A DNA stretch of 47,075 nt. It comes from Deltaproteobacteria bacterium. GTDB taxonomy: Bacteria; Bdellovibrionota; UBA1018; UBA923. Positions 10,328-23,459 of this stretch are shown here, one piece after another; the stretch's first letter is position 1; every line of letters starts with the position of its first letter. The DNA is taken from NCBI GenBank assembly GCA_016186905.1, contig JACPKS010000040.1, positions 1-47,075 on the forward strand, read 5' to 3'. The notes under the pieces were generated by a model, which worked only from the letters and a program-made list of their open reading frames with translations, was not told where the DNA came from and did no database searches. Both the position numbers and the translations under genes were made by a program.

Positions 10328-11260
10328 TTACCTCAGGTCTGCGGCACGATACCACTCAATCGTCTTACGCAAGCCTTCGTCAAGGCCCGTGCGCGCCGAG
10401 AAGCCGAACCACTCGCGCGCGCGTGACGTATCCAGGCCGCGGCGGGGCTGGCCGTTGGGTTTGGTGGCGTCCCAGGCAAAGCGCCCTTTGAACCCCATCG
10501 CGGCGCCGATTTTGGTCGCGAGGTCGCGAATCGGGATTTCAAAGCCGTTGCCGAGATTCGCGGGCTCCGCCCCGTCGTAGCGCTCGCACGCAAGCACGAT
10601 TCCTTCCGCCGCGTCTTCCACGTAAAGAAATTCGCGCGTCGGCGTGCCGTCGCCCCAAAGCGTCACCTCGCCGGCTCCGCGATCCATCGCCTCTTGAATT
10701 TTTCGGATGAGCGCGGGTATCACATGCGAGGAATTCAAATCGAAATTATCGTGCGGGCCGTAGAGATTCACCGGCAGAAGAAACACGCCGTTCATCCCGT
10801 ATTGCTGGCGATACGACTGAAGCTGCACGAGCAGGGCTTTTTTCGCGACACCATAGGGAGCATTCGTTTCTTCCGGATAACCGTTCCAGAGCTCTTCCTC
10901 GCGAAACGGAACCGGCGTGAACTTCGGATACGCGCAGATCGTGCCCGCGACCACGGTCTTCGCGACGCGGTTCGCGCGCGCGGCCTCGATAAGCTGAATC
11001 CCCATGATCGCGTTATCAAAGAAAAGCTCGCCCGGCTTTTCGCGATTAAGCCCGATGCCGCCGACGTGCGCCGCGAGATGGATCACGAGATCGCGCCCCT
11101 CAGTCACGCGAAGGCAGGCGTCCATTCGGCGCAGATCGAATTCCTTCGAGCGCGGCACGAGGATGTCGGCGGGAGCGCGCGCGCGGATTTTTTCGACGAC
11201 GTGACGCCCGAGAAATCCTGAGCCGCCGGTGACGGCGATGCGTTTGCCTCGCAGATCCAT
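10328..11260 (-). CDS. fcl: GDP-L-fucose synthase (GDP-4-keto-6-deoxymannose epimerase/reductase)
   Basis: The 310-residue protein is an extended short-chain dehydrogenase. It has TGGSGFLG near the N-terminus for NADP, the catalytic TICAYP/YGVAKK pair (Ser or Thr, Tyr-x3-Lys), and the [19 protein letters not shown] stretch typical of GDP-fucose synthase. It converts GDP-4-keto-6-deoxy-D-mannose to GDP-L-fucose in the cytoplasm. The start is supported by AAAGGAG six bases upstream. It lies 31 bp downstream of gmd, which makes its substrate, so both steps of the pathway are here. Fucose would go into surface polysaccharide or a glycolipid. No glycosyltransferase lies beside it. Confidence 0.93.
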
Positions 11261-11273
11261 AATGTGCTCCTTT

Positions 11274-11292
11274 GCGCGCGTGCCGCGCGCGC
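11274..11292. other. Intercistronic GC hairpin between gmd and fcl
   Basis: Alternating GC arms (GCGCGCG and CGCGCGC) pair around a short loop. The hairpin sits exactly between the gmd stop and the fcl ribosome site. It could protect the upstream transcript end or tune fcl translation. It is also simple alternating sequence, so it may be chance in GC-rich DNA. Confidence 0.35.
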
Positions 11293-12323
11293 TAGTCCCT
11301 GATGTACTTTTCCGGATCGAGCCCTTCGAGCTTCAGGTCCTCGCGCACCATCAGGCGCACCAGCCCGCGAAACGTGAGCGTCGGCTTCCACCCCAGCTGT
11401 TTCTTCGCCTTGGAACAATCCCCGATCAGCAGATCGACTTCGGTCGGGCGCAGATACCGCGAATCGCGCTCCACGAGCGGCTTCCAGTCGGTCTTCACGT
11501 ACCCGAACGCCTCATCCAAGAACTCGCGGATCGAATGCGTCTCGCCGGTGGCGATGACGTAATCGTCGGGCTTGTCTTGCTGAAGCATGAGCCACATCGC
11601 CTCGACGAAATCTTTCGCGTAACCCCAGTCGCGCTTGGCATCGAGGTTTCCGAGATAAAGCTTGTCTTGTTTTTCGGCGAGAATCCGCGCCACCGCGCGC
11701 GTGATCTTGCGCGTGACGAACGTTTCGCCGCGGCGGGGAGACTCGTGATTGAAGAGAATCCCGTTGCTCGCGTGAATGCCGTAGGCTTCGCGATAATTCA
11801 CGGTCGTCCAGTACGCGAAAACCTTGGCGCACGCGTAGGGGCTGCGCGGATAAAACGGCGTGGTCTCTTTCTGCGGAACTTCCCGCACGAGCCCGTACAT
11901 CTCGGAACTCGACGCCTGGTAGAAGCGCGGTTTGATTCCCGCGTCGCGAATCGCATCGAGGATACGAACCGCGCCGACTCCCGTCACGTCAGCCGTGTAC
12001 TCGGGCGTGTCGAAGCTCACGCGCACGTGCGACTGCGCCGCGAGATTGTAAATCTCGTCCGGATTGATGGTCTTCAGCAGCCGGTTCAGCACCGAGCCGT
12101 CGGAAAGATCGGCGTAATGCAGAAACAAGCGCACGCCTTGCAAGTGGGGATCGCGGTAGAGGTGATCAATGCGGCCAGTATTGAACGAACTCGAACGACG
12201 AATGGTGCCATGCACCTCGTAGCCCTTTTCCAGCAGAAGCTCGGCCAAATAAGAGCCGTCCTGGCCTGTGATTCCCGTGATCAGAGCCTTTTTAGCCCCG
12301 TTTTTCGTGTTCGTTTTTTCCAT
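11292..12323 (-). CDS. gmd: GDP-mannose 4,6-dehydratase
   Basis: The protein is 343 residues from the ATG at 12323; the frame also allows a TTG seven codons upstream, and neither start has a strong ribosome site. Motifs seen are [19 protein letters not shown] (NADP-binding), GTIRRSS, the catalytic [25 protein letters not shown] region (Thr/Glu/Tyr-x3-Lys), and the C-terminal [12 protein letters not shown]. Gmd removes water from GDP-D-mannose to give GDP-4-keto-6-deoxymannose, the first committed step to GDP-fucose or GDP-rhamnose. It is the first gene of the gmd-fcl operon and is divergent from the inositol-phosphate synthase gene. Confidence 0.95.
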
Positions 12324-12378
12324 GATTTTTAAGCACTTTTTCAAAGCACGGCATGAGTGTCAAGGGCTTACGTTCCTG

Positions 12379-12433: not shown

Positions 12434-13792
12434 ATGACCCCCACGAAGAATACTCGTCCCTCGATTGCCCCCGCCAAAGGAAAGCTCGCGGTACTGACCC
12501 CCGGGATGGGTGCGGTCGCGACCACGTTTTACGCTGGCGTGGAGGCGATAAAGCGCGGCATGGCTAAACCGATCGGTTCCTACACGCAGATGGGGCAAGT
12601 TCGGCTGGGCAAGCGCACCGAAAATCGCTTCAAAGCGGTGAAGGATGTCGTTCCCTTAGCCTCGCTCGATCAGATCGTGTTTGGCGGGTGGGATATCTTC
12701 GCGGAAAACGCCTACGAAGCGGCCAAGCACGCGCAAGTGCTCGAAAAAGATCTCATCGAGGCGCTGAAAGTTCCCCTTTCCAAGATCAAGCCGATGCCCG
12801 CGGTGTTTGACCGCGAGTTCGTCAAACGCATCGACGGCCCGAACGTGAAGAAGGGCCGCACGAAGATGGATCTCGCGGATCAGCTTCGCGCCGACATCCG
12901 GAATTTCATGAAGGACAACGGCTGCGATCGCGCCGTGATGGTCTGGTGCGCTTCCACCGAAGTGTACACGCCGCCGACCGCGATCCATCAGTCGCTTAAA
13001 ACTTTCGAAGAGGGTCTGCGCGGCAACGACCCGGCGATCTCGCCGTCGCAGATTTACACGTACGCGGCACTGATGGAGCGCGTGCCTTACGCCAACGGCT
13101 CCCCGAACGTCTCGGTCGAGATGCCCTGCCTGCAGGAACTCGCCCAGGAAATGGCGACACCGATCTGCGGCTCTGATTTCAAAACGGGCCAGACGCTGCT
13201 GAAAACCGTGATCGCGCCGGGCCTGCGCAACCGCCAGCTCGGCGTTGCCGGCTGGTACAGCACGAACATTCTCGGAAACCGCGACGGCGAAGTGCTCGAC
13301 GACCCAGGCTCGTTTAAGTCGAAGGAAGTTTCCAAGACCGGCGTGCTCACCGATATTCTCTCGGCCGAGCGCTACCCTGACCTCTACAAGGAAATCCACC
13401 ACATCGTGCGCATCAACTATTACCCTCCGCGCGGCGACAACAAAGAAGGATGGGACAACATCGACATCTTCGGCTGGCTTGGCTACCCGATGCAGATCAA
13501 GGTGAATTTCCTCTGCCGCGACTCGATTCTCGCGGCGCCAATTGTTTTGGATCTGGCGCTCTTCATGGACCTCGCCGGGCGCGCGAACATGCGCGGCATC
13601 CAGGAGTGGCTCTCGTTCTACTTCAAGGCGCCGATCGTGAAACGGGGCCTTACGCCCGAGCACGATCTTTCGGTGCAGCTGCTGAAGCTTGAGAATACGC
13701 TGCGCTTCTTTACCGGCGAAGAGCTCATCAATCATCTCGGCCTCACGTATTACGGAGTCGACGAAGGCACAGATGAAGGCGCAGAGGCTTAA
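12434..13792 (+). CDS. ino1: Inositol-3-phosphate (myo-inositol-1-phosphate) synthase
   Basis: The start is the ATG at 12434 after AGGAG, giving 452 residues; the open frame before it is non-coding. The N-terminus carries the NAD-binding VLTPGMGAVATTF. The core holds GSDFKTGQTLLKT and WYSTNILGNRDGEVLDDP, both hallmarks of the MIPS family, with the C-terminal NFLCRDSILAAPIVLDLA. The enzyme isomerises glucose 6-phosphate to 1L-myo-inositol 1-phosphate through an oxidation, aldol closure and reduction. In bacteria it usually serves phosphatidylinositol or soluble inositol solutes. The CDP-alcohol phosphatidyltransferase 12 bp downstream argues for lipid synthesis. Confidence 0.95.
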   Translation: MTPTKNTRPSIAPAKGKLAVLTPGMGAVATTFYAGVEAIKRGMAKPIGSYTQMGQVRLGKRTENRFKAVKDVVPLASLDQIVFGGWDIFAENAYEAAKHAQVLEKDLIEALKVPLSKIKPMPAVFDREFVKRIDGPNVKKGRTKMDLADQLRADIRNFMKDNGCDRAVMVWCASTEVYTPPTAIHQSLKTFEEGLRGNDPAISPSQIYTYAALMERVPYANGSPNVSVEMPCLQELAQEMATPICGSDFKTGQTLLKTVIAPGLRNRQLGVAGWYSTNILGNRDGEVLDDPGSFKSKEVSKTGVLTDILSAERYPDLYKEIHHIVRINYYPPRGDNKEGWDNIDIFGWLGYPMQIKVNFLCRDSILAAPIVLDLALFMDLAGRANMRGIQEWLSFYFKAPIVKRGLTPEHDLSVQLLKLENTLRFFTGEELINHLGLTYYGVDEGTDEGAEA

Positions 13793-13804
13793 GGAGAGCG
13801 CACC

Positions 13805-14683
13805 GTGGTCATGAAAGAGCTTGCGGCACTGAGCTTCGGCTTTGACCTCACCTACACGCTGCTGCTCATTGGAATCACGGCACTCGTAGCGCTTGCGTAC
13901 GCGGTGCGGATCATGCGCAAGGGCCGGCCTCATTACGACCGCATCGAGAAGCAGGGCGCAAGCCCGCTCTTGGGCAAGGGCGTGATGGAAATGGCGCACT
14001 GGGGGATGCTTCCGGTCGCAAGGCTCCTCGCGTTTTTCCACGTCTCGCCGAACCAGCTTTCGTGGATGTCGCTTCTCTTCGGGCTTCTCGCGGGTCTCTG
14101 CTTAGCCTTCGGACATTTCGGCTTCGGGGCGGTCTTCGCGACCGTCTGCTCGTTTCTCGACATGCTTGACGGGATGGTGGCACGCCTCACGCACGTCGCA
14201 TCGGGCGCGGGCGAAGTGCTCGACGCCTCGGTCGACCGGTACGTGGAGTTTTTCTTCCTCGGCGGTCTCATCGTCTATTACCGCGAGATGCCGGCGCTCC
14301 AGGTGCTCACACTCCTCGCGCTCATGGGTTCGTATATGGTGAGCTACTCGACCGCCAAGGCCGAGGCGCTGCAGGTTACGCCACCAAAGGGGAGCATGCG
14401 CCGTCCGGAGCGCGCGCTGTACCTGATTCTCGGAGCGGCACTTTCTCCGCTCACGATCCCGTGGTTTGAGGCGCATCGCGACTATGCGGCGCCGTTCGGA
14501 CACCCGATGGTCATCACGCTTTGCCTGGTCGCCGTGCTCGCCAACGTTTCGGCGATCGAACGGCTCTGGGCGATCGCGAAAATCATGCGCGTCAGAGAGC
14601 GCGAGCGCGGCAAAACGCGACTGGCGTCGCGTCTTGAAGACGCCGCGGACGTCGGAGAAGGCAAAAGGAACGAATCAATTTGA
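13805..14683 (+). CDS. CDP-alcohol phosphatidyltransferase, likely phosphatidylinositol-phosphate synthase
   Basis: The 292-residue membrane protein has the complete CDP-alcohol motif D122-G-x2-A-R-x8-G136-x3-D140-x3-D144, within about five or six membrane helices. The GTG start at 13805 has AAGGAG eight bases upstream; an ATG two codons later is less well placed. The family joins a CDP-diacylglycerol to an alcohol and releases CMP. Directly after ino1, the likeliest alcohol is inositol 1-phosphate, giving phosphatidylinositol phosphate as in mycobacterial PgsA1. That acceptor is inferred from context. It has an N-terminal extra segment (residues 1-70) and a charged C-terminal tail. Phosphatidylglycerophosphate synthase is the main alternative. 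Confidence 0.88.
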   Translation: MVMKELAALSFGFDLTYTLLLIGITALVALAYAVRIMRKGRPHYDRIEKQGASPLLGKGVMEMAHWGMLPVARLLAFFHVSPNQLSWMSLLFGLLAGLCLAFGHFGFGAVFATVCSFLDMLDGMVARLTHVASGAGEVLDASVDRYVEFFFLGGLIVYYREMPALQVLTLLALMGSYMVSYSTAKAEALQVTPPKGSMRRPERALYLILGAALSPLTIPWFEAHRDYAAPFGHPMVITLCLVAVLANVSAIERLWAIAKIMRVRERERGKTRLASRLEDAADVGEGKRNESI

Positions 14684-15072
14684 CCCTTTTCAAGTCCTTC
14701 CACCGCTCGCAAGTCGCAGCGCTTGCCGCCACGATCGCCGACTTCGGCTCGCTGGTTCTGCTCGTCGAGTTCGCCCATGTCTGGTACGTCGCGGCCACCG
14801 CCATGGGAGCGCTCTTCGGAGCAGTCACGAACTTTCTGCTCGGCCGTCACTGGGCGTTCCATCCCGGTGATCCTGAACGTCTAGGCGACGTTCGCGCCCA
14901 GGCACGGCGCTATGCGCTCGTTTCCGCTGGGAGCCTAGTACTCAACACTCTAGGCGTGTACCTCTTCACCGATATCGGGGGGCTGCGCTACATCGTTTCA
15001 AAAGCGACGGTGGCGATTCTCATCAGCGTCTTCTTCAACTTTCCGCTCCACCGCGCATTCGTCTTCAGGTGA
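14680..15072 (+). CDS. GtrA-like family membrane protein
   Basis: This 130-residue protein has four predicted membrane helices. It carries the GtrA signature FLLGRHWAFHPGD between helices two and three, and NFPLHRAFVFR at the C-terminus. The TTG start overlaps the stop of the phosphatidyltransferase by four bases (TTGA), with AAAGGA ten bases upstream. GtrA proteins are small partners in cell-surface glycan synthesis, thought to move lipid-linked sugars across the inner membrane. In this run it might flip or help assemble an inositol-headed or glycosylated lipid; that is inference. Confidence 0.88.
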   Translation: MTLFKSFHRSQVAALAATIADFGSLVLLVEFAHVWYVAATAMGALFGAVTNFLLGRHWAFHPGDPERLGDVRAQARRYALVSAGSLVLNTLGVYLFTDIGGLRYIVSKATVAILISVFFNFPLHRAFVFR

Positions 15073-15075
15073 ATC

Positions 15076-16422
15076 ATGGAAAACGCTGACGTGCGTACCG
15101 CGATTCCTGGGCCCAAGAGTTCGGCGATCCGCGCGCGTGAAGAAGAACATCTGGCGCCGGGCCTTCAGGGGTTTGCGCTCATGGCCGGAATCGTCGTTGA
15201 GCACGCGCGCGGCAGCACCGTAACCGACGTCGACGGCAATACCTTCATCGACATCATCGGCGGCATCGGCGTGAACGGGCTCGGCCACAGCCATCCGAAG
15301 TTCGTGCGCGCGCTTCAAGCTCAGGCCGAAAAGGCCTCGGTCGGAAGTTTCACCTCGGAAGCGCGCGTGGATCTGCTGCACCTTCTCGCAAAGAACCGCC
15401 CGGGCCGCGACGTGCACCGCACGCAGCTGTACTCAAGCGGTGCCGAAGCCGTGGAATCGGCCCTGCGACTGGCGAAGTGCCACACCGGAAAAACGGAGTT
15501 CGTGAGTTTTTGGGGCGGGTTCCACGGAAAAACCATGGGCGCGCTTTCGCTCATGGGCTCTGATTTCAAGGATGGCCTCGGCCCCATGGTGCCCGGCTCG
15601 CACATCGTGCCGTACGCGAACTGTTACCGCTGTCCGGTGAAACTTTCCTACCCGGCGTGTGGAATGGCGTGCATCGAGCTTGCCCGCAGGCAGGCCAAGA
15701 TGGCGGCGGCGGGAAAAGTCGCCGCGTTCATCGTGGAGCCGATGCAGGGCACGGCCGGAAACGTGATTCCGCCGAAGGAATTCCTGCCGGCGGTCAAGGA
15801 AGTGGCCAAAGAGATGGGAGCGCTCCTGATCGCCGACGAGATGATCACGGGTTTTGGCCGCACCGGTAAATTCTGGGGCACGCAGCACTCGGGCGTTGAA
15901 GCCGATATCGTCACGCTTGGAAAGCAATTCGGCGGGGGCTATCCGGTAAGTGCCGTGATGTCGAGCGATGAGATCACGAGCGCGAAACCGTGGGCGAATC
16001 CCTCGGGCTCTTCGTCGAGCTACGGCGGAAATCCCCTCGCTTCGGCGGCGGCGGCGGCCGCCATTCGCATCATCGAAGAAGAACGGCTCGTCGATAATTC
16101 CCGCCGTGCCGGCGAGTACTTCCTCGGCAGACTTAAACCGTTCCTTGAGCGTTATCCGTTCATCGGCGACGTTCGGGGCGCTGGGCTTTTCTTGGGCATC
16201 GAGATGGTGAAAGACAAGAAAACGCGCGAGCCGCTCTCAAAGCCCGTTACACAGCGAATCTTCAACGAGTGTCTTAAACGCGGGCTTCTCACGATGTCGT
16301 ACGCCGCGAGCTTTCGCATTCAGCCGGCACTCACGATCGACGAAGGCACGATCGACAACGCCGTGGCGATCCTTAGCGAAGTCTATGACCTTATTGAGAA
16401 GGAAGGGATCTGCAAGCGTTAG
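15076..16422 (+). CDS. Class III (aspartate/4-aminobutyrate family) aminotransferase
   Basis: The 448-residue protein has the class III PLP fold: SSGAEAVESALRLAK, FHGKTMGALSL, the EPMQGTAGNV region, DEMITGFGRTG (Asp254) and the Schiff-base lysine in TLGKQFGGGYP (Lys283). A four-Cys stretch (C183-x2-C186-x8-C195-x3-C199) is common in one branch of the family. The family moves an omega-amino group of GABA, ornithine, diamines or similar to a keto acid. It begins three bases after the GtrA gene, so it is part of the inositol-lipid run. Some class III enzymes act on sphingoid-like amines (FumI on hydrolysed fumonisin), which makes a lipid amine a possible substrate here, but nothing in the sequence proves it. 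Confidence 0.92.
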   Translation: MENADVRTAIPGPKSSAIRAREEEHLAPGLQGFALMAGIVVEHARGSTVTDVDGNTFIDIIGGIGVNGLGHSHPKFVRALQAQAEKASVGSFTSEARVDLLHLLAKNRPGRDVHRTQLYSSGAEAVESALRLAKCHTGKTEFVSFWGGFHGKTMGALSLMGSDFKDGLGPMVPGSHIVPYANCYRCPVKLSYPACGMACIELARRQAKMAAAGKVAAFIVEPMQGTAGNVIPPKEFLPAVKEVAKEMGALLIADEMITGFGRTGKFWGTQHSGVEADIVTLGKQFGGGYPVSAVMSSDEITSAKPWANPSGSSSSYGGNPLASAAAAAAIRIIEEERLVDNSRRAGEYFLGRLKPFLERYPFIGDVRGAGLFLGIEMVKDKKTREPLSKPVTQRIFNECLKRGLLTMSYAASFRIQPALTIDEGTIDNAVAILSEVYDLIEKEGICKR

Positions 16423-17489
16423 CGCAAGCGCGACCCGGCGCTGCCGGTTCCCACGCGTTTAAAGATCACGTAAACCAGCACCGTATACGCCGAGCCCCAG
16501 AGGATATCGAGCACGTAGTGGTGGTTCAGATAAACCGCCGAGAAACACATCATGAGAAAGAAAAAAATCGAGAAGATCCTCGCCGCGCCGAACTCGAACG
16601 CGAAAAGCACCGCGAGCAGCGGATACGCCACGTGCAGCGACGGGATCGCGCCGAAAACGTCGGCGGAGCGCCCGTACATCCCCGTGAAAAAATGCGTGCC
16701 GAGAAGCGCGTCGAAACGGAGGCATCCTGCCGCGTTCGCGGCCACGTCCATTTTCGCCGGCCCCAGGCCGTGCATCGCGACGTACCAGGGCGGTGCCGCC
16801 GGATACCAGTAATACGTCGTGTAGCCGAGGACATTGAGCCAGAAAAAGGCCCACATCGGCACACGCGACCGAAGGGAGCGATTACAGGCGCGAAGCGCGA
16901 TCGACGAATTTTCAGAGCGACTTTTTCGAGTGTGCCAAAACCGAAAATATGCGGCAATCAGAACGAAAATTGCGACAAATGTTAAATAGAAAAACCCCGT
17001 CACGAAATCCAACACCGGATGCGCATGCAACTGCCACCACTCGTTCGGCGTCAGCGTGCCCGCGGCCGTGGGAATTCCGAAAAACGTCTTGTCGAAAAGA
17101 TACGGTTCGCTTACGCGAACCTGCGCGCGAAGGTAATCGGAGTAAAAACGCTGGCTGTCATAAACGATGCCGGTCAGAATCAGAGGCAGTAAGAATCCCA
17201 GAAAAACGCGCGCTTGCCTGCCCCCATAAGATAACGAAAGAGCAAGAACGCCCACGAACGCGTGGTCTGGCCGAAATCCGCCAAGCGCCTTAAGCGATAA
17301 CCAGTAGACCGCGACACTTGCGGCGGGAAAAGTCTTTTGGAACACCGAAAGGCCGCGCCACCATTCGACGTAACCGGCGACCGCGCGTTCGAGAATTCCG
17401 GTATCGGGGGCTTCTACGCCCGCCCCAGGCGGCAGCGCCAGCTCGGAAGTGCTTCTTGCGCGCGCATTTTCGGTCAGATCCTGAGCCAT
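16419..17489 (-). CDS. PAP2-superfamily membrane protein, Aur1/Ipt1 inositolphosphotransferase-like branch
   Basis: This 356-residue multi-pass membrane protein has the PAP2_3-type motifs in order: YYWYPAAPPW (about 226-235), VFGAIPSLHVAYPLL (PSLH at 283-286) and LNHHYVLDILWGS (His323/324, Asp328). The FGAxPSLH plus HHYxxD pattern is very like fungal Aur1, which transfers inositol phosphate from phosphatidylinositol to ceramide; ordinary PAP2 phosphatases have PSGH. In this setting it could be an inositol-phosphorylceramide-like synthase, a phosphatidylinositol-phosphate phosphatase, or another head-group transferase. Its stop overlaps the aminotransferase stop tail to tail. Family assignment is firm; reaction is inferred. 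Confidence 0.85.
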   Translation of the reverse strand: MAQDLTENARARSTSELALPPGAGVEAPDTGILERAVAGYVEWWRGLSVFQKTFPAASVAVYWLSLKALGGFRPDHAFVGVLALSLSYGGRQARVFLGFLLPLILTGIVYDSQRFYSDYLRAQVRVSEPYLFDKTFFGIPTAAGTLTPNEWWQLHAHPVLDFVTGFFYLTFVAIFVLIAAYFRFWHTRKSRSENSSIALRACNRSLRSRVPMWAFFWLNVLGYTTYYWYPAAPPWYVAMHGLGPAKMDVAANAAGCLRFDALLGTHFFTGMYGRSADVFGAIPSLHVAYPLLAVLFAFEFGAARIFSIFFFLMMCFSAVYLNHHYVLDILWGSAYTVLVYVIFKRVGTGSAGSRLR

Positions 17490-17556
17490 TCAAAGCCATT
17501 ATCACGCCGAGTCGAAAAATACCACACGGCCTCATTTTTTGAGTTAACTTGCGGAT

Positions 17557-18507
17557 ATGTTCGTGATCGCCGCCACGTTGCTCTTTGGCGCCGTTGCCCA
17601 TGCGGCGCAGCCCGGCTTAACCTTGGCCCCATACGGGGCAGTTTCAGCACTTGCGCCACAGGACGGCACGCCGGCGTTTCAATTCCACTCCGAAGACCCG
17701 GTTTTAAACATCACGCGCATCCAAAAAACAAAAATGCCAACACTTGCGGCCTGCGAAAAGGCCGTGCGTGCGCTCCAAAACCTTCCGCTGGGCAGCGTGT
17801 TTTCGGGCGGCTCCGTCAGGGCATTCAAGGATTGGGGACCCTGGAACGAGGACGACCGCGACGCCGCCGAAGGCTGCGACGACTTCCCCTGCAAAGTGAA
17901 ACTTGACGCGAACGAGGTGGCCCGGATGAAGAAATCCCCGCCCCCGTCGCGCATCGAAACGCTAGCCTCGCTCGCTCAGGCGCGAGCCGCGCGCTACCTC
18001 AAGACGGGGATACGCGCCGAGTACGAGTTTCCTGGTGCTCCGACCGACCCATGGAAGTGGTTTGACGACAACGGCTTCAAAACACTCACCCGCCCCGCGG
18101 CACCCGTGTTGCGCGCGCGAAAGCTCGACCTGGTTCCGGGAAAGATGCGACCGCTGCGCCAGATCCTCGACTGCCGTTACGCTTTCGTGAAAAAGGCCGT
18201 CCCCAAAGGTGCCGCCGCGAAAGGTGGCGCCAAGACAAATGGCGATGGAATCGAGGCGGCGCTCTGGATCCGCGACGTCTACACGGCTCACTATTTCGAC
18301 AGTTGGGGCGAATGGTACGGCGTGAGCTGCGATCCAAAAACGCTGATGCTCGTGACGGTCGCGTCTCTGCACGCGGAGTTCGATCTCCTCAAAAAAAACG
18401 ATCTCATCTCACGGATCAGCCGCCCGAAAATGCGCGGTGCGATCAAGGAAAACGGTTCGCACTACCTCGAAGGCCAAATGAAAACGCTCAACATCCCATC
18501 CAAATGA
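17557..18507 (+). CDS. Secreted protein of unknown function
   Basis: The 316-residue protein has a short Sec signal (residues 1-16, cleavage after AHA). I recognise no family. Five cysteines are visible in the mature part; GCDDFPC and DCRYAF are two of the places. A long Ala/Lys/Gly linker (VPKGAAAKGGAKTNGDG) splits it into two parts. The C-terminal part has aromatic-rich WIRDVYTAHYFDSWGEWYGVSC, suggesting a compact, perhaps disulfide-stabilised periplasmic domain. It is divergent from the Aur1-like gene (67 bp between starts) and followed after 19 bp by the dehydrogenase gene. Confidence 0.8.
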   Translation: MFVIAATLLFGAVAHAAQPGLTLAPYGAVSALAPQDGTPAFQFHSEDPVLNITRIQKTKMPTLAACEKAVRALQNLPLGSVFSGGSVRAFKDWGPWNEDDRDAAEGCDDFPCKVKLDANEVARMKKSPPPSRIETLASLAQARAARYLKTGIRAEYEFPGAPTDPWKWFDDNGFKTLTRPAAPVLRARKLDLVPGKMRPLRQILDCRYAFVKKAVPKGAAAKGGAKTNGDGIEAALWIRDVYTAHYFDSWGEWYGVSCDPKTLMLVTVASLHAEFDLLKKNDLISRISRPKMRGAIKENGSHYLEGQMKTLNIPSK

Positions 18508-18526
18508 GAATATAGTCGCGGCATCT

Positions 18527-19624
18527 ATGCCACCACTCCGACAATTAAATGGCGCGGTCATCGGTTACGGTTTCATTTCGGGTCAGGGGCACATCCCCGC
18601 CTACCTCGATCGCGTGAAAAGTCGCGGCGGCGACGTGCGCATCGCCGCGGTGGCCGACGTTTGCGAAGCCCGGCGCGAAGCCGCGCGTAAAGCGCTTCCT
18701 GAGGCGCGGATCTATTCCGATTATGTTTCGCTTTTGGAAGCGGAGGCACAGCGCCTCGACTTCGTCGACATTTCCACGCCTCCTTGCGATCACGCCCAGG
18801 TCGCGCACGCCGCGTTTGACCGGAGCTTGCACGTGCTTTGCGAAAAACCTTTGACGACGACGCTTGAAGACGCGCGCGCGATGCTCGAGCACGCCGCGCG
18901 GGCCAAGCGCGTTTTATTTCCTTGTCACAATTACAAACACGCTCCCGTCGTGAAAACAATCCGTGAAATCATCGCGAGCGGCCGCATCGGTACGGTGCGG
19001 TCGCTCACGCTCAACACTTATCGCAACACGCACGCCAAAGGTGTCGGCGAGTGGAAGCGCGACTGGCGCCGCGAGATGAAATACAGCGGCGGCGGCATCG
19101 CGATGGATCACGGCAGCCACACGTTCTATCTGACGTTTGACTGGCTGGGCTCTTATCCGACGGCGGTCACGGCGAAGATGTCGAATCTTGAGCCCGGGAA
19201 ATACGACACCGAGGATAATTTCACGGCGGTGCTCACCTTCCCGACCGGCGTCGCGCACGCGCATCTCACGTGGACGGCCGGCGTGCGCAAGGTGATCTAC
19301 ACCGTGCAAGGCACCCGCGGCGCGATCACGGTCGATGACGACGATTTACAGCTTGCGGTGATGAAGAAGACCTCAGGCCCCGACGTCGCGCAAGGTGCCG
19401 TGGAGTGGGAAGTCGAAAAGCGCCGCATCGAATCGGACTGGATGGACGCCAGCCACGTCGGCTGGTTCAACTCGATGTTCGATCAGTTCAAGACGGCGAT
19501 CGCCGAAGGTGACTACGTTGGGAAGGAAGCACGCGAGTCTTATCTCTGCATTCAGCTCATCACGACCGCCTACGAATCCGCGCGCACCGGCTGTAGGGAA
19601 TTACCGCTAAAAGGTGGCTGCTAA
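18527..19624 (+). CDS. Gfo/Idh/MocA family dehydrogenase
   Basis: The 365-residue protein has an N-terminal NAD-binding fold (AVIGYGFISGQGHIPAY), the family lysine in LCEKPLTT, and the catalytic GGGIAMDHGSH stretch (Asp and His). The C-terminal domain is the usual open beta-sheet. Members oxidise or reduce sugars, inositols and related polyols. With ino1 nearby, an inositol oxidoreductase (for example an inositol 2-dehydrogenase or epimerising pair member) is an attractive guess, but the substrate cannot be read from sequence. No ribosome site is visible before the ATG. Its last codons run into the 29-bp inverted repeat that forms the terminator. Confidence 0.9.
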   Translation: MPPLRQLNGAVIGYGFISGQGHIPAYLDRVKSRGGDVRIAAVADVCEARREAARKALPEARIYSDYVSLLEAEAQRLDFVDISTPPCDHAQVAHAAFDRSLHVLCEKPLTTTLEDARAMLEHAARAKRVLFPCHNYKHAPVVKTIREIIASGRIGTVRSLTLNTYRNTHAKGVGEWKRDWRREMKYSGGGIAMDHGSHTFYLTFDWLGSYPTAVTAKMSNLEPGKYDTEDNFTAVLTFPTGVAHAHLTWTAGVRKVIYTVQGTRGAITVDDDDLQLAVMKKTSGPDVAQGAVEWEVEKRRIESDWMDASHVGWFNSMFDQFKTAIAEGDYVGKEARESYLCIQLITTAYESARTGCRELPLKGGC

Positions 19625-19683
19625 CTAACGGCAAAGCACCGCGTTAGACGCACCGCTTTGCCGTTAGTTAGCAGCCACCTTTT
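19609..19683. terminator. Bidirectional terminator from a perfect 29-bp inverted repeat
   Basis: The arms 19609-19637 and 19655-19683 are exact reverse complements over 29 bases, with a 17-nt loop. One end has AAAA and the other a run of seven T, so it can act as an intrinsic terminator on both strands. It lies between the convergent dehydrogenase and TauE genes and includes the dehydrogenase stop codon. One arm (about 20 bp) recurs at 21351-21370, which shows it belongs to a repeat family. Confidence 0.85.
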
Positions 19684-19685
19684 TT

Positions 19686-20453
19686 TCATGACCACAATAG
19701 CGCTAAACCCGACACCGTCAGCATCACAAACACGAACGTGCGGAACGCGTGCTGCGAGACGCGATGGTGGGCGTAGTCGCCGATCCACAATCCCAGAACC
19801 AGTGAAGGCGCGAGCCACGCGCTCGTCGCGAACGTCGCTGCTGTGATGCGGCCCGATTGCAGAAAACTCACGAGCATCGCGGTATTGAGCACCGTCCAAA
19901 GAGTCGAGAGCGTGCTGCGGAATACTTCCTTGTCGTGAATCGTCTTCGACGCATACGAAACCACCATCGGCCCGCCCGAGGCGTAGATTCCCTGAAGCGC
20001 GCCGCCCGAGATAAGAAAAAGCGCGGATTTCCAGTGCGGCAGCTTCCTGCGCTGTGACTCGACCGCGTCCTCGCCTCTGCGTCTGCGCAAGGTGCGCATC
20101 AGTTCCTGCGCGAGCTCCCAAACCGCGAAATACAATACGAAGACTCCAAAAATAATTTTGAGCGCGCGCCCGTGGATGTGCGGCGAGACAAACATCCCCG
20201 CGAGAAGCCCCACCGCCGTGAACGGAAGGATTTTGCCGGCGAAAATCCTCCAGTCGGTGGCGTGCGAATGCCGTAACGCGATGTACGTGCTCGAAAGCAG
20301 ATTCACCGGCACGATCACCGGCACCATCGCCTCGATCGGATACAGATGCGCGCCGAGTGTCAGGCAAATCACCGCGCTCCCAAAGCCCGCGACGCTGCCG
20401 ACGGCGTTGGAGAGCAGGAACAACATGCTGAACAAGAAGAGTTTCAGGTCCAC
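19686..20453 (-). CDS. TauE/SafE family membrane transporter
   Basis: This 255-residue protein has about seven to eight membrane helices and the two-repeat pattern of the TauE/SafE family. Each half has a Gly-rich helix (GSVAGFGSAVICLTLG in the first; ISGGALQGIYASGGPMVVSY in the second). Members export sulfite, sulfoacetate or other organosulfur anions. The substrate here is unknown. A taurine or sulfonolipid link would be of interest beside sphingolipid genes, but there is no direct evidence. It reads towards the terminator shared with the dehydrogenase and is flanked on the other side by a REP-like repeat. Confidence 0.88.
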   Translation of the reverse strand: MDLKLFLFSMLFLLSNAVGSVAGFGSAVICLTLGAHLYPIEAMVPVIVPVNLLSSTYIALRHSHATDWRIFAGKILPFTAVGLLAGMFVSPHIHGRALKIIFGVFVLYFAVWELAQELMRTLRRRRGEDAVESQRRKLPHWKSALFLISGGALQGIYASGGPMVVSYASKTIHDKEVFRSTLSTLWTVLNTAMLVSFLQSGRITAATFATSAWLAPSLVLGLWIGDYAHHRVSQHAFRTFVFVMLTVSGLALLWS

Positions 20454-20511
20454 GATATTATTAAAGCATAAGAGTGATTCAACTTACGAGATAGGAACAT
20501 TTTCGCCGCCA

Positions 20512-20536
20512 CCGTAAAAAGCAGGCCGGCACATTT
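20512..20536. repeat. REP-like repeat copy (TAAAAAGCAGGCCGGCAC type)
   Basis: The core TAAAAAGCAGGCCGGCACA at 20515 is closely similar to copies at 24611-24632 and, in reverse orientation, 21301-21316 and 47035-47055. It sits in the 101-bp gap between the start of the TauE gene and the stop of vapC. Confidence 0.6.
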
Positions 20537-20554
20537 ACATTTAGCGACGGTCGG

Positions 20555-20932
20555 TCACCAAACAGCGTCCCCGTAATGCCTTCTGACCGATGAATCCTTG
20601 GTGAGCAGTGGCGCATTCATCAGCTTGGCGTGACTGGCGATCAACCTGTCGAACGGATCGCGGGTCCAGTGTTCCGACAGGGCGATGATCACCACGTCCA
20701 GGAATTTCTCGGTTAAGACGTCGATGTCGATACGGGTTTTAAGCTCCGTGAAAATCTGTTGCGCCGGAACGGTGATCTTTTCAATCTCGAACAGATATTG
20801 CAATTCGAGCAGAACAGCCGGAGAAATCGAAAGTCTGCTTTCTTCGATGCGGGAAGCGGCCTTTTTGGAGAACCTTTCCCTTGCGCCCTCATAAAGCCAG
20901 AGAACGCAATGCGTATCGAGGTGAACCATCAT
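20555..20932 (-). CDS. vapC: VapC-type PIN-domain toxin
   Basis: The protein is 125 residues from the ATG at 20932, which overlaps the antitoxin stop (ATGA). PIN-domain acidic residues are visible in HLDTHCVLW (Asp6), SPAVLLELQYL (Glu), and the distal RDPFDRLIASHA (two Asp). The FERL-like end LLTKDSSVRRHY is also typical. VapC toxins are magnesium-dependent ribonucleases that cut tRNA or rRNA in the cytoplasm when freed from their antitoxin. The gene lies second in a two-gene operon with its Phd/YefM-type antitoxin, between REP-like repeats, as is common for mobile toxin-antitoxin modules. Confidence 0.93.
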   Translation of the reverse strand: MMVHLDTHCVLWLYEGARERFSKKAASRIEESRLSISPAVLLELQYLFEIEKITVPAQQIFTELKTRIDIDVLTEKFLDVVIIALSEHWTRDPFDRLIASHAKLMNAPLLTKDSSVRRHYGDAVW

Positions 20933-21162
20933 CTGGCCCGCCACTGCTCGAGCCAATCGATCCGGAAGATCTCGTCAGGATCCCCCTTGAAAATCCTGCG
21001 CCGGGCGAGCCGTGAGAATTTGCTTACTTTCTCCGCGGGTTCGATCCTGACCGTTCTGCCCCTGCGCTCGATTTCAACCGGTTTGCCGGTTTCCAAAACC
21101 GAGTCGATGATCTTGTATATATCCTGCCGCAGCGCCGAAGCCGTGAGCTTGAGGTTCTTCAT
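20929..21162 (-). CDS. Phd/YefM-type antitoxin
   Basis: The 77-residue protein has the Phd/YefM layout. An N-terminal DNA-binding part (MKNLKLTASALRQDIYKIID) is followed by a short strand pair (GKPVEIERRGRTVRIEP) and a basic, aromatic C-terminal tail that would wrap the toxin (IFRIDWLEQWRAR). It neutralises the adjacent VapC and, with it, represses the operon. There is no ribosome site. The predicted transcription start is at or next to the ATG, so the message is probably leaderless. Confidence 0.9.
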   Translation of the reverse strand: MKNLKLTASALRQDIYKIIDSVLETGKPVEIERRGRTVRIEPAEKVSKFSRLARRRIFKGDPDEIFRIDWLEQWRAR

Positions 21163-21168
21163 ACCATG

Positions 21169-21214
21169 ATTCTAGCATAGCGTACGTACGAGTCAATGTT
21201 ATAAAGACGTACGA
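21169..21214 (-). promoter_or_regulatory. Promoter and twin operator of the phd-vapC module
   Basis: On the minus strand, TTGACT (21191-21196) and TAGAAT (21169-21174) are separated by 16 bp, and the predicted start falls at about 21162, the antitoxin ATG. The 8-mer TCGTACGT occurs twice (21184-21191 and 21207-21214, read on the minus strand), 23 bp apart. The nearer copy sits inside the spacer, overlapping a CGTACGTACG palindrome. Paired sites about two helical turns apart fit autorepression by a Phd-VapC complex. Confidence 0.6.
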
Positions 21215-21300
21215 TTGCTGGCGCGGCTCGTGGATCTCCAGCCCTTTGCTCTCGCGGGTTAAACCGCTCGGCCGCCTTGGCTTAGATACCCGACTCTTGT

Positions 21301-21316
21301 GGCCTACTTTTTACAG
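21301..21316. repeat. REP-like repeat copy with adjoining hairpin
   Basis: GGCCTACTTTTTACAG is the reverse complement of the CTGTAAAAAG[CT]AGG start of the other REP-like copies. It is followed at 21323-21338 by a short palindrome (GCGTCAA, TT, TTGACGC) and then by the repeat arm at 21351-21370. The 234-bp gap between the antitoxin and ceramidase genes is therefore mostly repeat-derived. Confidence 0.5.
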
Positions 21317-21350
21317 CGTCACGCGTCAATTTTGACGCAGCTCTCAGCCA

Positions 21351-21370
21351 TTAGTTAGCAGCCACCTTTT
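21351..21370. repeat. Solo copy of the 29-bp inverted-repeat arm
   Basis: The 20 bases TTAGTTAGCAGCCACCTTTT are identical to the outer part of the right arm of the terminator at 19655-19683. The base before the match differs. It lies 27 bp upstream of the ceramidase-like start and reads in the same direction as that right arm. No partner arm is seen next to it. Confidence 0.75.
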
Positions 21371-21396
21371 GGAAATTATGGGATGATGGCGTCACG

Positions 21397-22131
21397 ATGA
21401 ATGAAGCCATGCACTGCCCCGCCGGAAGCCCCTGGAGCGGTTACGCCGCTGCAACAATGAAATACTGCGAAGCGAATCTCTGCGGCTGGATCGCGCAGCC
21501 GGCCAATACGTTTTCGAACCTGGGTATTGTCATCGTGGGGATTTGGCTCGCAGTCTTGAGTTCGCGCCGCACGGACGCACGCCCTCTCAAACTCATCGGA
21601 CCGATCGCGATCGCGCTCGGAATCACGTCGCTCGCCTATCACGCCTCCTACACTTTTTTTTGGCAGTTCTTTGACCTGTCTTCGATGTTCCTTTTTTCCA
21701 CGCTTCTACTCGTACTCAACCTGCAGCGTCTGGGCGCGCTTTCGCAGCGAGCGATTGTGCCCACGTACGTGATTCTCAACGTCGTTTCGATGGCGCTGCT
21801 CTGGGCGATCAAAGGAAAGATCGGGATGGTCATCTTCGGATTGCAGCTTTTGGCGGCCGTCGCGGTTGAAGTCATGGTTTCAAGAGTCGCCGTAACTCGC
21901 GTGAATTACAAAGATCTCTGGCGCACGCTCGTGACCTTTCTCGCGGCGTACACGTTTTGGATTTTGGATTACACGGGAGCGGTCTGCAATCCCGGCAATC
22001 ACGTTTTGCAAGGCCACGCCGCCTGGCATCTCGTGAATTCCTTTTGCTTTATATTCATGTATCGGTTTTACCGGCAGTTCGATTGGGAAAAAATCAATGC
22101 GCCCCAGGGCGTGCAGGAGAGCCTTGTATGA
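21397..22131 (+). CDS. Alkaline-ceramidase-like (CREST superfamily) membrane protein
   Basis: This 244-residue protein has about seven membrane helices and the alkaline ceramidase pattern. KYCEANLCGWIAQPANTFSN aligns by eye with the N-terminal metal-binding segment of ACER3. Ser78-x3-His82 with Asp93 (SLAYHA...FFDLSSM) matches the catalytic Ser/His/Asp, and His207-x3-His211 (GHAAWHLV) matches the zinc-binding HxxxH. One calcium ligand (Glu33 in ACER3) is replaced by Gln34. Alkaline ceramidases cleave ceramide to a sphingoid base and fatty acid. The gene overlaps the next one, a sphingosine-1-phosphate-lyase-like enzyme, by ATGA, which strongly supports a lipid-amide role. Confidence 0.85.
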   Translation: MNEAMHCPAGSPWSGYAAATMKYCEANLCGWIAQPANTFSNLGIVIVGIWLAVLSSRRTDARPLKLIGPIAIALGITSLAYHASYTFFWQFFDLSSMFLFSTLLLVLNLQRLGALSQRAIVPTYVILNVVSMALLWAIKGKIGMVIFGLQLLAAVAVEVMVSRVAVTRVNYKDLWRTLVTFLAAYTFWILDYTGAVCNPGNHVLQGHAAWHLVNSFCFIFMYRFYRQFDWEKINAPQGVQESLV

Positions 22132-23459
22132 CCGAAAAGAAAATCAAGTTCCCCCAGAAAGGCACCGATCGCGCCGAGGTGCTCGCACGGATGCAATCCT
22201 ACCGCGACAAAGACGCGAACTGGCACGACGGACGCACGTGGAGTCTCGTTTACCACGCGGGCGACGAGCATTACGAGTTTCTCAAAAAAGCGCACAACAT
22301 GTTTTTCTCGGAAAACGGCCTCAACCCCGGCGCGTTTCCGAGCCTGAAGCGCTTTGAAGCCGAGGTCGTTTCGATGGCATGCGACCTTTTGGGCGGAGAT
22401 GCCGATGCGGTCGGCAACATGACGAGCGGCGGAACCGAAAGCATTCTCATGGCCGTGAAAACCTATCGCGACCGCGCGCGCGCGCAACGGCCCGAGATCA
22501 AACAGCCCGAAGCAATCCTGCCGATGACGGTGCACCCGGCGTTCGAAAAAGCGATGCACTACTTCGACGTGAAGCCCGTGCACGTCGCCGTCCGCGAAGA
22601 TTTTCGCGTCGACGTCGAGGCCGCGAAAAAAGCCATCACCAAGAACACGATCCTGATCGTGGGTTCGGCGCCGCAGTACCCGCACGGCGTGATCGATCCG
22701 ATCGCCGAGCTCGCGGCGGTAGCACTTACCAACGGCATCGGAATGCACGTCGACTCGTGCGTCGGCGGATTTCTTCTTCCCTTCGTACGAAAGCTCGGCG
22801 CGAAACTCCCCGACTTCGATTTCCGCGTGCCCGGCGTGACGTCGATGTCCGCCGATTTGCATAAGTACGGCTTTACGGCCAAGGGCGCGTCGGTCGTGCT
22901 GTATCGAAACCGAGATCTCAGGCGCTTTCAGTATTTTCAATACACCGACTGGCCGGGCGGGCTTTTCGGATCGCCGAGCATGTGCGGCACGCGGCCCGGC
23001 GGCCCGATCGCGGCGGCATGGGCCACGTTCAACGCCATCGGCATCGAGGGCTACATCGAGATCGCGAAACGCATCATGGAGAACACGAAAAAACTTCAGG
23101 ACGGCATCCGCGCGATTCCAGGACTGTACGTTTTAGGCGAACCCGTGATGAGCGTGTTCGCGTTCGCATCCGAAAACGCGGATATTTTCGCCGTCGCCGA
23201 CCAGATGGAAGCGCGCGGGTGGCACATCGACCGCCAGCAGAATCCGGCGTGCTTGCATCTGATGGTCACGCCCGCGCACACGCCGATTCTCGATCAGTAT
23301 CTTTCTGATTTGCGTGAGTCGGTGGCGTACGTGGCAGCCAATCCGAACGCGGCGACTCAAGGCGCGGCCGCGATGTACGGCATGATGGCCAAGATTCCCG
23401 ATCGCACGCAGGTGCGGGCGTTCATCCAGCAATATATGGATACGCTGTATGACGTCTAG
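22128..23459 (+). CDS. Sphingosine-1-phosphate lyase-like PLP enzyme
   Basis: The 443-residue protein (ATG at 22128, AGGAGA upstream, overlapping the ceramidase stop) is a group II decarboxylase-fold PLP enzyme with the S1P-lyase pattern: GNMTSGGTESILMAVK, HPAFEKAMHYF, GSAPQYPHGVIDPI, HVDSCVGGFLLPF, and VTSMSADLHKYGFTAKGAS with the Schiff-base Lys246 and a second Lys252. GGLFGSPSMCGTRPGG follows. S1P lyase splits phosphorylated sphingoid bases into a fatty aldehyde and phosphoethanolamine. The N-terminal membrane anchor of eukaryotic enzymes is absent, as in known bacterial forms. Glutamate or tyrosine decarboxylase is the alternative, but the motif set and the coupled ceramidase favour S1P lyase. 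Confidence 0.9.
   Translation: MTEKKIKFPQKGTDRAEVLARMQSYRDKDANWHDGRTWSLVYHAGDEHYEFLKKAHNMFFSENGLNPGAFPSLKRFEAEVVSMACDLLGGDADAVGNMTSGGTESILMAVKTYRDRARAQRPEIKQPEAILPMTVHPAFEKAMHYFDVKPVHVAVREDFRVDVEAAKKAITKNTILIVGSAPQYPHGVIDPIAELAAVALTNGIGMHVDSCVGGFLLPFVRKLGAKLPDFDFRVPGVTSMSADLHKYGFTAKGASVVLYRNRDLRRFQYFQYTDWPGGLFGSPSMCGTRPGGPIAAAWATFNAIGIEGYIEIAKRIMENTKKLQDGIRAIPGLYVLGEPVMSVFAFASENADIFAVADQMEARGWHIDRQQNPACLHLMVTPAHTPILDQYLSDLRESVAYVAANPNAATQGAAAMYGMMAKIPDRTQVRAFIQQYMDTLYDV

Follow-up and report, generated by a model that had tools for sequence, protein, structure and literature searches.

A predicted Bacteroides-like inositol phosphoceramide gene cluster in Bdellovibrionota, adjoined by a separate, likely sphingoid-degrading module

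We analysed a stretch of 47,075 bases (hereafter, the window), which is a complete contig (JACPKS010000040.1, C18) of a Bdellovibrionota metagenome-assembled genome (MAG; 2.86 Mb, 115 contigs, 91.6% complete), and identified a cluster of genes for myo-inositol-1-phosphate synthase (MIPS), a predicted phosphatidylinositol-phosphate (PIP) synthase (PIPS), a GtrA-family protein, a class-III aminotransferase (AT3), a predicted AUR1-type inositol phosphoceramide synthase (IPCS) and a Gfo/Idh/MocA oxidoreductase (GFO). Together with genes for serine palmitoyltransferase (SPT) and a bacterial ceramide synthase-like (bCerS-like) enzyme on another contig, this cluster is predicted to direct inositol phosphoceramide synthesis, and an adjoining, separate module of a TauE permease, a ceramidase and a sphingosine-1-phosphate (S1P) lyase likely degrades sphingoid lipids; judged from sequence, we give this explanation a probability of about 0.7. 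A first-pass annotation of the window had proposed an inositol sphingolipid pathway from five enzymes, all of which are present with intact frames (Pfam, PDB matches, motifs), and four further genes belong to the picture: GtrA, AT3 and GFO in the first module and TauE in the second. The proposed pathway is supported by an SPT gene elsewhere in the genome, directly followed by a bCerS-like gene, and by conservation of the inositol cluster in relatives. The first module comprises the following genes.

12434..13792, plus strand: MIPS, myo-inositol-1-phosphate synthase, with an ATG at 12434 (PF07994, 324 bits, 1.8e-96; PF01658, 116 bits, 9.5e-34)
13805..14683, plus strand: PIPS, CDP-alcohol phosphatidyltransferase, predicted phosphatidylinositol-phosphate synthase (PF01066, 46.6 bits, cut-off 22)
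14680..15072, plus strand: GtrA-family membrane protein (PF04138, 69.8 bits)
15076..16422, plus strand: AT3, class-III pyridoxal phosphate (PLP) aminotransferase (PF00202, 338 bits; GKQFGGG at residue 282)
16419..17489, minus strand: IPCS, predicted AUR1-type inositol phosphoceramide synthase, a PAP2_3 protein (PDB matches, fold)
17557..18507, plus strand: hyp316, secreted-looking protein without a family (no Pfam or NCBIfam match)
18527..19624, plus strand: GFO, Gfo/Idh/MocA NAD-dependent oxidoreductase (PF01408, PF22725, PF02894)

The genes for MIPS, PIPS, GtrA and AT3 are spaced by 12, -4 and 3 bases and form one tight operon, with which IPCS is convergent, overlapping AT3 by 4 bases. IPCS resembles AUR1-type phosphoinositol transferases in both sequence and predicted fold: in the PDB it matches only two sequences, both of AUR1 (E = 5e-19 and 6e-19), the inositol phosphorylceramide synthase of yeast, and structural alignments to AUR1 give 20-22% identity, the bacterial gene neighbourhood being a further difference from that enzyme.

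To place the cluster among its relatives, IPCS homologues were sought in one genome per species (84,980 species); at least 534 relatives were confirmed, and the best 80 of these at least 534 were studied as loci with flanks of up to 10 kb. Many flanks were ended by a contig edge, so that the counts of linked genes, which come solely from tblastn under identity and length thresholds of our choice, are lower bounds; neighbouring genes were called by a crude composition score, and in high-GC loci those without a match may be miscalled. Phylum groups were assigned by hand: 28 loci of Bdellovibrionota (counting L103, as well as L073, which is titled Proteobacteria), 17 of Myxococcota/delta, 16 of Bacteroidota/Chlorobiota, 9 of Verrucomicrobiota, 4 of Nitrospinota and 6 others. 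Across the 80 loci, PIPS was found in 42, GtrA in 32, an RND protein in 29, MIPS in 28, bCerS in 22, SPT in 20, AT3 in 20 and GFO in 9. Homologues of hyp316 lay near IPCS in 4 of the 28 Bdellovibrionota loci. In a comparison of 19 neighbourhoods of relatives (a twentieth was the SPT contig of the window genome itself), seven (L038, L040, L041, L044, L052, L053, L056) repeated the gene order GFO-MIPS-PIPS-GtrA-AT3 and had IPCS close by, GFO being upstream of MIPS in relatives with the full cluster; four had a partial cluster (L042, L047, L054, L055), and the remaining eight held IPCS plus at most GtrA. Relatives of the window genome carry the names Bdellovibrionales, Oligoflexia and Bacteriovoracaceae, which places the host in Bdellovibrionota. 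We also profiled 58 genomes for the presence of IPCS, AT3, SPT, bCerS-like and S1P lyase genes; IPCS matches occurred in 32 of them at E ≤ 1e-3 and were strong (E < 1e-50) in 29, the window genome included. In a tree of IPCS the window sequence groups with Bdellovibrionota, separate from the Bacteroidota rows. Second, diverged IPCS copies are present in two Bdellovibrionota genomes, G002 (L091) and G015 (L093), and group with Myxococcota-labelled sequences, including Anaeromyxobacter.

The RND protein, of the MMPL/RND family, was near IPCS in 16/28 Bdellovibrionota, 10/17 Myxococcota/delta and 3/6 other loci, and within 250 bases of it in 18 of the 29 linked loci. The window genome has its own copy on contig C11 (45% identity), whose best NCBIfam match is the hopanoid transporter HpnN (TIGR03480). 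It belongs to the same family as HpnN but reaches only 232 bits against a cut-off of 752, and differs from it in that the gene is linked to IPCS in relatives; the RND protein may export a lipid outward.

In the inositol branch, MIPS is the sole PF01658 match in its genome and is 64-65% identical to the MIPS of Bacteroidota loci L119 and L118. PIPS has a complete CDP-alcohol motif, D..DG..AR(8)G...D...D, at residues 119-144, its top PDB matches are PI/PIP synthase chains, and its residues R203, R253 and S180 are invariant across 8 aligned sequences from three groups; at the presumed equivalent of K135 of the Mycobacterium enzyme it has a threonine. In RsPIPS, according to the available part of PMC4634129, the phosphate group of inositol phosphate is bound by R153 and R191, two residues that eukaryotic PI synthases do not conserve. 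R203 and R253 of PIPS correspond to these arginines, the first aligned to a PDB PIPS chain and the second placed by family alignment only, and it is on this correspondence that PIPS is predicted to use inositol-1-phosphate, the product of MIPS, in which case a phosphatase would be needed. The Bacteroides PIP phosphatase is the PgpA-family enzyme BT_1525 (PMC9246714, cited here and below from the parts of its text available).

One Myxococcales MAG, WY1.bin30, holds genes for bCerS-like, SPT, MIPS, IPCS, a HAD phosphatase, GtrA, PIPS, AT3, GFO and RND together (L105:4789-19800), and its HAD gene may encode a PIP phosphatase. PIPS-GtrA fusions with a C-terminal domain of ~380-400 residues were observed in three other loci (L101:3631-6030, L106:3727-6045, L109:3515-5929), that of L101 with a sub-threshold match to Svf1_C.

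The SPT-like gene lies on contig C111 (L003:1318-2547) and is closer to PDB serine palmitoyltransferase (409 bits) than to cysteate acyltransferase (244 bits). Directly 3' of it, with a 4-base overlap, is the gene of a 379-aa acyltransferase (L003:2544-3683), for which the label bCerS-like is putative and taken from gene context: its homologues, named GNAT or N-acetyltransferase, adjoin SPT in Bacteroidota and Verrucomicrobiota loci. The bacterial ceramide pathway, as described in the available parts of PMC11087976 and PMC11334938, consists of Spt, bCerS and CerR. Among the 58 genomes, SPT-type matches were found in 53 (E ≤ 1e-60) and bCerS-like matches in 56 (E ≤ 1e-3). The first-pass annotation had pointed to the rest of the genome for SPT, a ceramide synthase and a sphingoid kinase; the first is there (518 bits to NF047600), for the second there is the putative bCerS-like gene, and for the third a DAGK_cat search gave 0 matches in the 91.6% complete genome, the same search being positive in 13 of 14 control genomes. 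In one Verrucomicrobiota locus (L094:4891-8850), next to bCerS-like and IPCS genes, an SPT-like part lies within a 1319-aa open frame, the start of which, in our reading, resembles a polyketide synthase.

What we observed are genes, motifs, predicted folds and linkage, from which we infer every activity, substrate and product of the following scheme. MIPS would convert glucose-6-phosphate to inositol-1-phosphate, and PIPS would join this to CDP-diacylglycerol to give phosphatidylinositol phosphate, which a phosphatase encoded outside the cluster (a PgpA gene is present elsewhere in the genome) would convert to phosphatidylinositol. SPT and the bCerS-like enzyme would provide the ceramide backbone, to which the AUR1-type IPCS would transfer phosphoinositol from phosphatidylinositol. 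The HpnN-like RND transporter, whose gene adjoins IPCS in many relatives and lies on a different contig in the window genome, may carry the product outward, and AT3 and GFO, which are tied to the module, may oxidise and aminate the inositol.

At ≥65% identity, AT3 was present in 21 of the 29 IPCS genomes and in none of the 29 others (Fisher p = 2.6e-9, kinship ignored). The 8 IPCS genomes from which it is absent at this level include G031, with a 63% piece ended by a contig edge (L074), and G002, with a 56% homologue only; weaker homologues (56-59%) in G002, G003, G055 and G056 were left uncounted. AT3 and IPCS were on different contigs in six genomes (G013, G022, G032, G038, G045, G046). Among the 80 loci, AT3 accompanied IPCS in 12/28 Bdellovibrionota and 8/17 Myxococcota/delta loci, and GFO in 6/28 and 3/17, respectively; GFO adjoins AT3 in L098 and L105, the former being a locus of Anaeromyxobacter oryzae Red232 that also has IPCS and PIPS. 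Neither was found in the loci of Bacteroidota/Chlorobiota (0/16), Verrucomicrobiota (0/9), Nitrospinota (0/4) or other groups (0/6).

Oxidation by an NAD-dependent enzyme followed by PLP-dependent transamination is a usual route to an amino group on a ring alcohol, and because of this the AT3/GFO pair suggests a putative oxidised and aminated inositol. We tentatively propose, as a possibility that we regard as rather doubtful, that Bdellovibrionota and Myxococcota make an aminoinositol (inosamine) phosphoceramide, a new membrane lipid: GFO would oxidise a hydroxyl to a ketone, AT3 would aminate it, IPCS would attach the product to ceramide, and the HpnN-like RND transporter encoded beside IPCS would carry the zwitterionic sphingolipid to the outer membrane. 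We consider it appreciably more probable, at somewhat below even odds, that AT3 and GFO do not act on the head group and instead supply a different envelope polymer with an amino sugar or amino acid, sharing the operon for regulation. The nearest solved structures of AT3, which are amino-acid racemases and GABA transaminases, are in keeping with such a role, as are GFO, about equally similar to many sugar dehydrogenases (its nearest structures are diverse sugar/inositol dehydrogenases, none close), the GDP-sugar genes that adjoin the cluster (10328-12344) and the lack of either gene in the Bacteroidota/Chlorobiota loci. Against it, AT3 at ≥65% identity is confined to IPCS genomes among the 58 (58-59% homologues occur in three genomes that lack IPCS), its gene sits inside the PIPS-GtrA operon, and its linkage to IPCS recurs in a second group, Myxococcota/delta.

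Several observations weigh against the predicted synthesis of inositol phosphoceramide. IPCS scores 184.1 bits (E = 4e-54) against a cut-off of 480 for the equivalog NF052609, a cut-off also unmet by the Bacteroidota homologue L119, which has a full cluster (333 bits). PIPS is under the NCBIfam cut-offs, with 115 of 180 bits for NF040950 and 92 bits for NF052561 (BT_1523), and SPT is below the cut-off of 640 bits of NF047600, its best NCBIfam match. The ceramide reductase candidate, C66:7314-8291, is 29% identical (E = 1e-33) to a Bacteroidota cluster gene and scores best, weakly, with HpnA (156 of 368 bits, NCBIfam). There is no PIP phosphatase in the window cluster: no PgpA match was found in the window, and the single match in the genome is on contig C42. 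SPT-type matches occurred in 28 of the 29 IPCS genomes, yet also in 25 of the 29 without IPCS, and SPT alone is therefore no predictor of an inositol head group. The IPCS, SPT and transporter genes are on three contigs of an incomplete MAG. As for the AT3/GFO pair, the AT3-IPCS association is uncorrected for phylogeny, of the two genes the 58-genome profile covers AT3, and no AT3 was found in 60 of the 80 IPCS loci, often because contigs were short. PAP2-fold enzymes, moreover, may be plain phosphatases, and the cluster could yield only phosphatidylinositol-type glycerolipids, with the PAP2 protein as a lipid phosphatase, for instance the missing PIP phosphatase. We judge this unlikely: the predicted fold and the sequence are both far closer to AUR1, and the agreement takes in N-terminal helices beyond the PAP2 core (model residues 40-356); in other phyla, IPCS homologues have SPT and bCerS-like genes as neighbours; and PgpA, the PIP phosphatase of Bacteroides (PMC9246714), is present in the window genome.

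Next to the genes predicted for inositol phosphoceramide synthesis lies the second module.

19686..20453, minus strand: TauE/SafE-family permease (PF01925, 101 bits)
20555..20956, minus strand: PIN-domain toxin (PF01850, 49.9 bits)
20929..21162, minus strand: probable antitoxin, 77 aa, upstream of and overlapping the PIN gene (open frame only)
21397..22131, plus strand: alkaline-ceramidase-like membrane hydrolase (PF05875, 71 bits, cut-off 32.5)
22128..23459, plus strand: sphingosine-1-phosphate lyase (PDB 3mad, 435 bits, E = 3e-129)

The ceramidase has the family score, predicted fold and Ser/Asp/three-His site of alkaline ceramidases, and the lyase is far more similar to S1P lyase 1 (402 bits, E = 2e-119) than to MfnA (134 bits) or glutamate decarboxylase (71 bits); its HKYG motif starts at residue 246 of the translation used as query. 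The two genes overlap by ATGA. TauE is divergent beside the ceramidase-lyase pair in L254, L255 and L269, at less than 100 bases from the ceramidase, and beside the lyase in L258; in the window the PIN pair sits between TauE and the ceramidase and is a probable insertion. A second ceramidase homologue (49% identity) is present in the same genome at C40:15370-16053.

That a single eukaryote-like locus from 12.4 to 23.5 kb both makes and breaks inositol phosphoceramide is, in our view, very improbable. All the genes lie within 11 kb of the same contig and the ceramidase and lyase genes overlap, as such a locus would have it, but ceramidase, lyase and TauE were found in 0 of the 80 fetched IPCS loci, within the flank limits given above, and none of the 22 loci fetched around a lyase or ceramidase gene in relatives held an inositol gene. 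In G026, on one long contig, the inositol and catabolic modules are ~486 kb apart, and across the 58 genomes the lyase does not track IPCS (11/29 vs. 7/29, p = 0.39). The first-pass annotation had treated synthesis and breakdown as one locus and had allowed for two adjacent modules; its caveat is what these counts uphold, and of the neighbourhood whose conservation it proposed to check in relatives, the inositol cluster is kept together, with no catabolic module beside it in the fetched loci. The TauE/ceramidase/S1P-lyase genes are thus likely a separate module for the breakdown of sphingoid lipids.

This module could instead act on sulfonosphingolipids, the ceramidase freeing capnine-like bases, the lyase yielding an aldehyde and taurine, and TauE exporting the taurine. 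With such a substrate no sphingoid kinase would be needed, which suits the lack of a DAGK_cat match, and a divergent TauE gene accompanies the lyase both in the window and in 4 of the 20 lyase loci from relatives. TauE-family substrates are varied, however, a kinase of another family could serve the lyase, and the genome's own strong alpha-oxoamine synthase match is SPT-like rather than like cysteate acyltransferase; we hold a sulfonosphingolipid substrate to be a slim prospect. Compared with human alkaline ceramidase ACER3 and S1P lyase 1, the likely sphingoid-degrading enzymes of the window have genes that overlap within a single bacterial operon and lie close to a TauE permease gene, with no DAGK-type kinase found in the genome.

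The closest known counterpart of the inositol cluster is BT_1522-BT_1526 of Bacteroides thetaiotaomicron, which shares with it MIPS, PIP synthase, GtrA (BT_1524) and an AUR1-like phosphoinositol dihydroceramide synthase, SPT being a separate gene; PMC9246714 describes BT_1522 as resembling AUR1 and reports that the lipid disappears in the knock-out. The first-pass annotation had held that Bacteroides lacks an Aur1-type enzyme and that the combination could be a new route, neither of which stands: BT_1522 is AUR1-like and required for the lipid, and the core route is therefore already known, GtrA included. The window cluster differs in belonging to another phylum, with IPCS in another tree branch, in having no clustered PgpA, in the addition of AT3 and GFO, and in the HpnN-like transporter gene that adjoins IPCS in relatives. 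PMC9246714 cites ceramide phosphoinositol from Myxococcus xanthus and from Sphingobacterium; the M. xanthus lipid is of the same predicted product class, and the Myxococcus and Corallococcus loci L136 and L135 hold MIPS-IPCS-PIPS-GtrA, but their fetched flanks, unlike the window, showed neither AT3 nor GFO. Novosphingobium acidiphilum has a lipid with matching fragments and, in the available text of the same paper, no homologues of either Bacteroidetes cluster, and other routes to such lipids may therefore exist.

Elsewhere in the window, the GDP-sugar genes, for a GDP-mannose 4,6-dehydratase and an epimerase, adjoin the inositol operon divergently, and at 918-2830 on the minus strand an endonuclease/exonuclease/phosphatase-family gene adjoins a PLD-like gene; both may be lipid hydrolases, and none was found in the fetched IPCS loci. 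In genome G051, MIPS (L052:13631-14976) and S1P lyase (L257:865-2234) are each broken over two frames, by assembly error or frameshift.

Taken together, these findings point to a predicted Bacteroides-like inositol phosphoceramide pathway whose genes are real, conserved in Bdellovibrionota and mostly explained, with a conserved pair of putative modification genes (AT3 and GFO) and, alongside, an independent turnover module. New are the phylum, the tie of the AT3/GFO pair to IPCS in Bdellovibrionota and Myxococcota-type genomes, and the linked HpnN-like transporter. Inositol sphingolipid synthesis genes would thus extend beyond Bacteroidetes to Bdellovibrionota and, by gene content, to Verrucomicrobiota, Nitrospinota, Chlorobiota and others, and would include candidates for the genes behind the reported Myxococcus lipid. 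A specific, testable head group is predicted from the AT3/GFO pair, the RND gene is a candidate for the carrier that moves the sphingolipid out of the inner membrane, and the genes for alkaline ceramidase and S1P lyase, linked as they are, make up a putative bacterial sphingolipid turnover operon.

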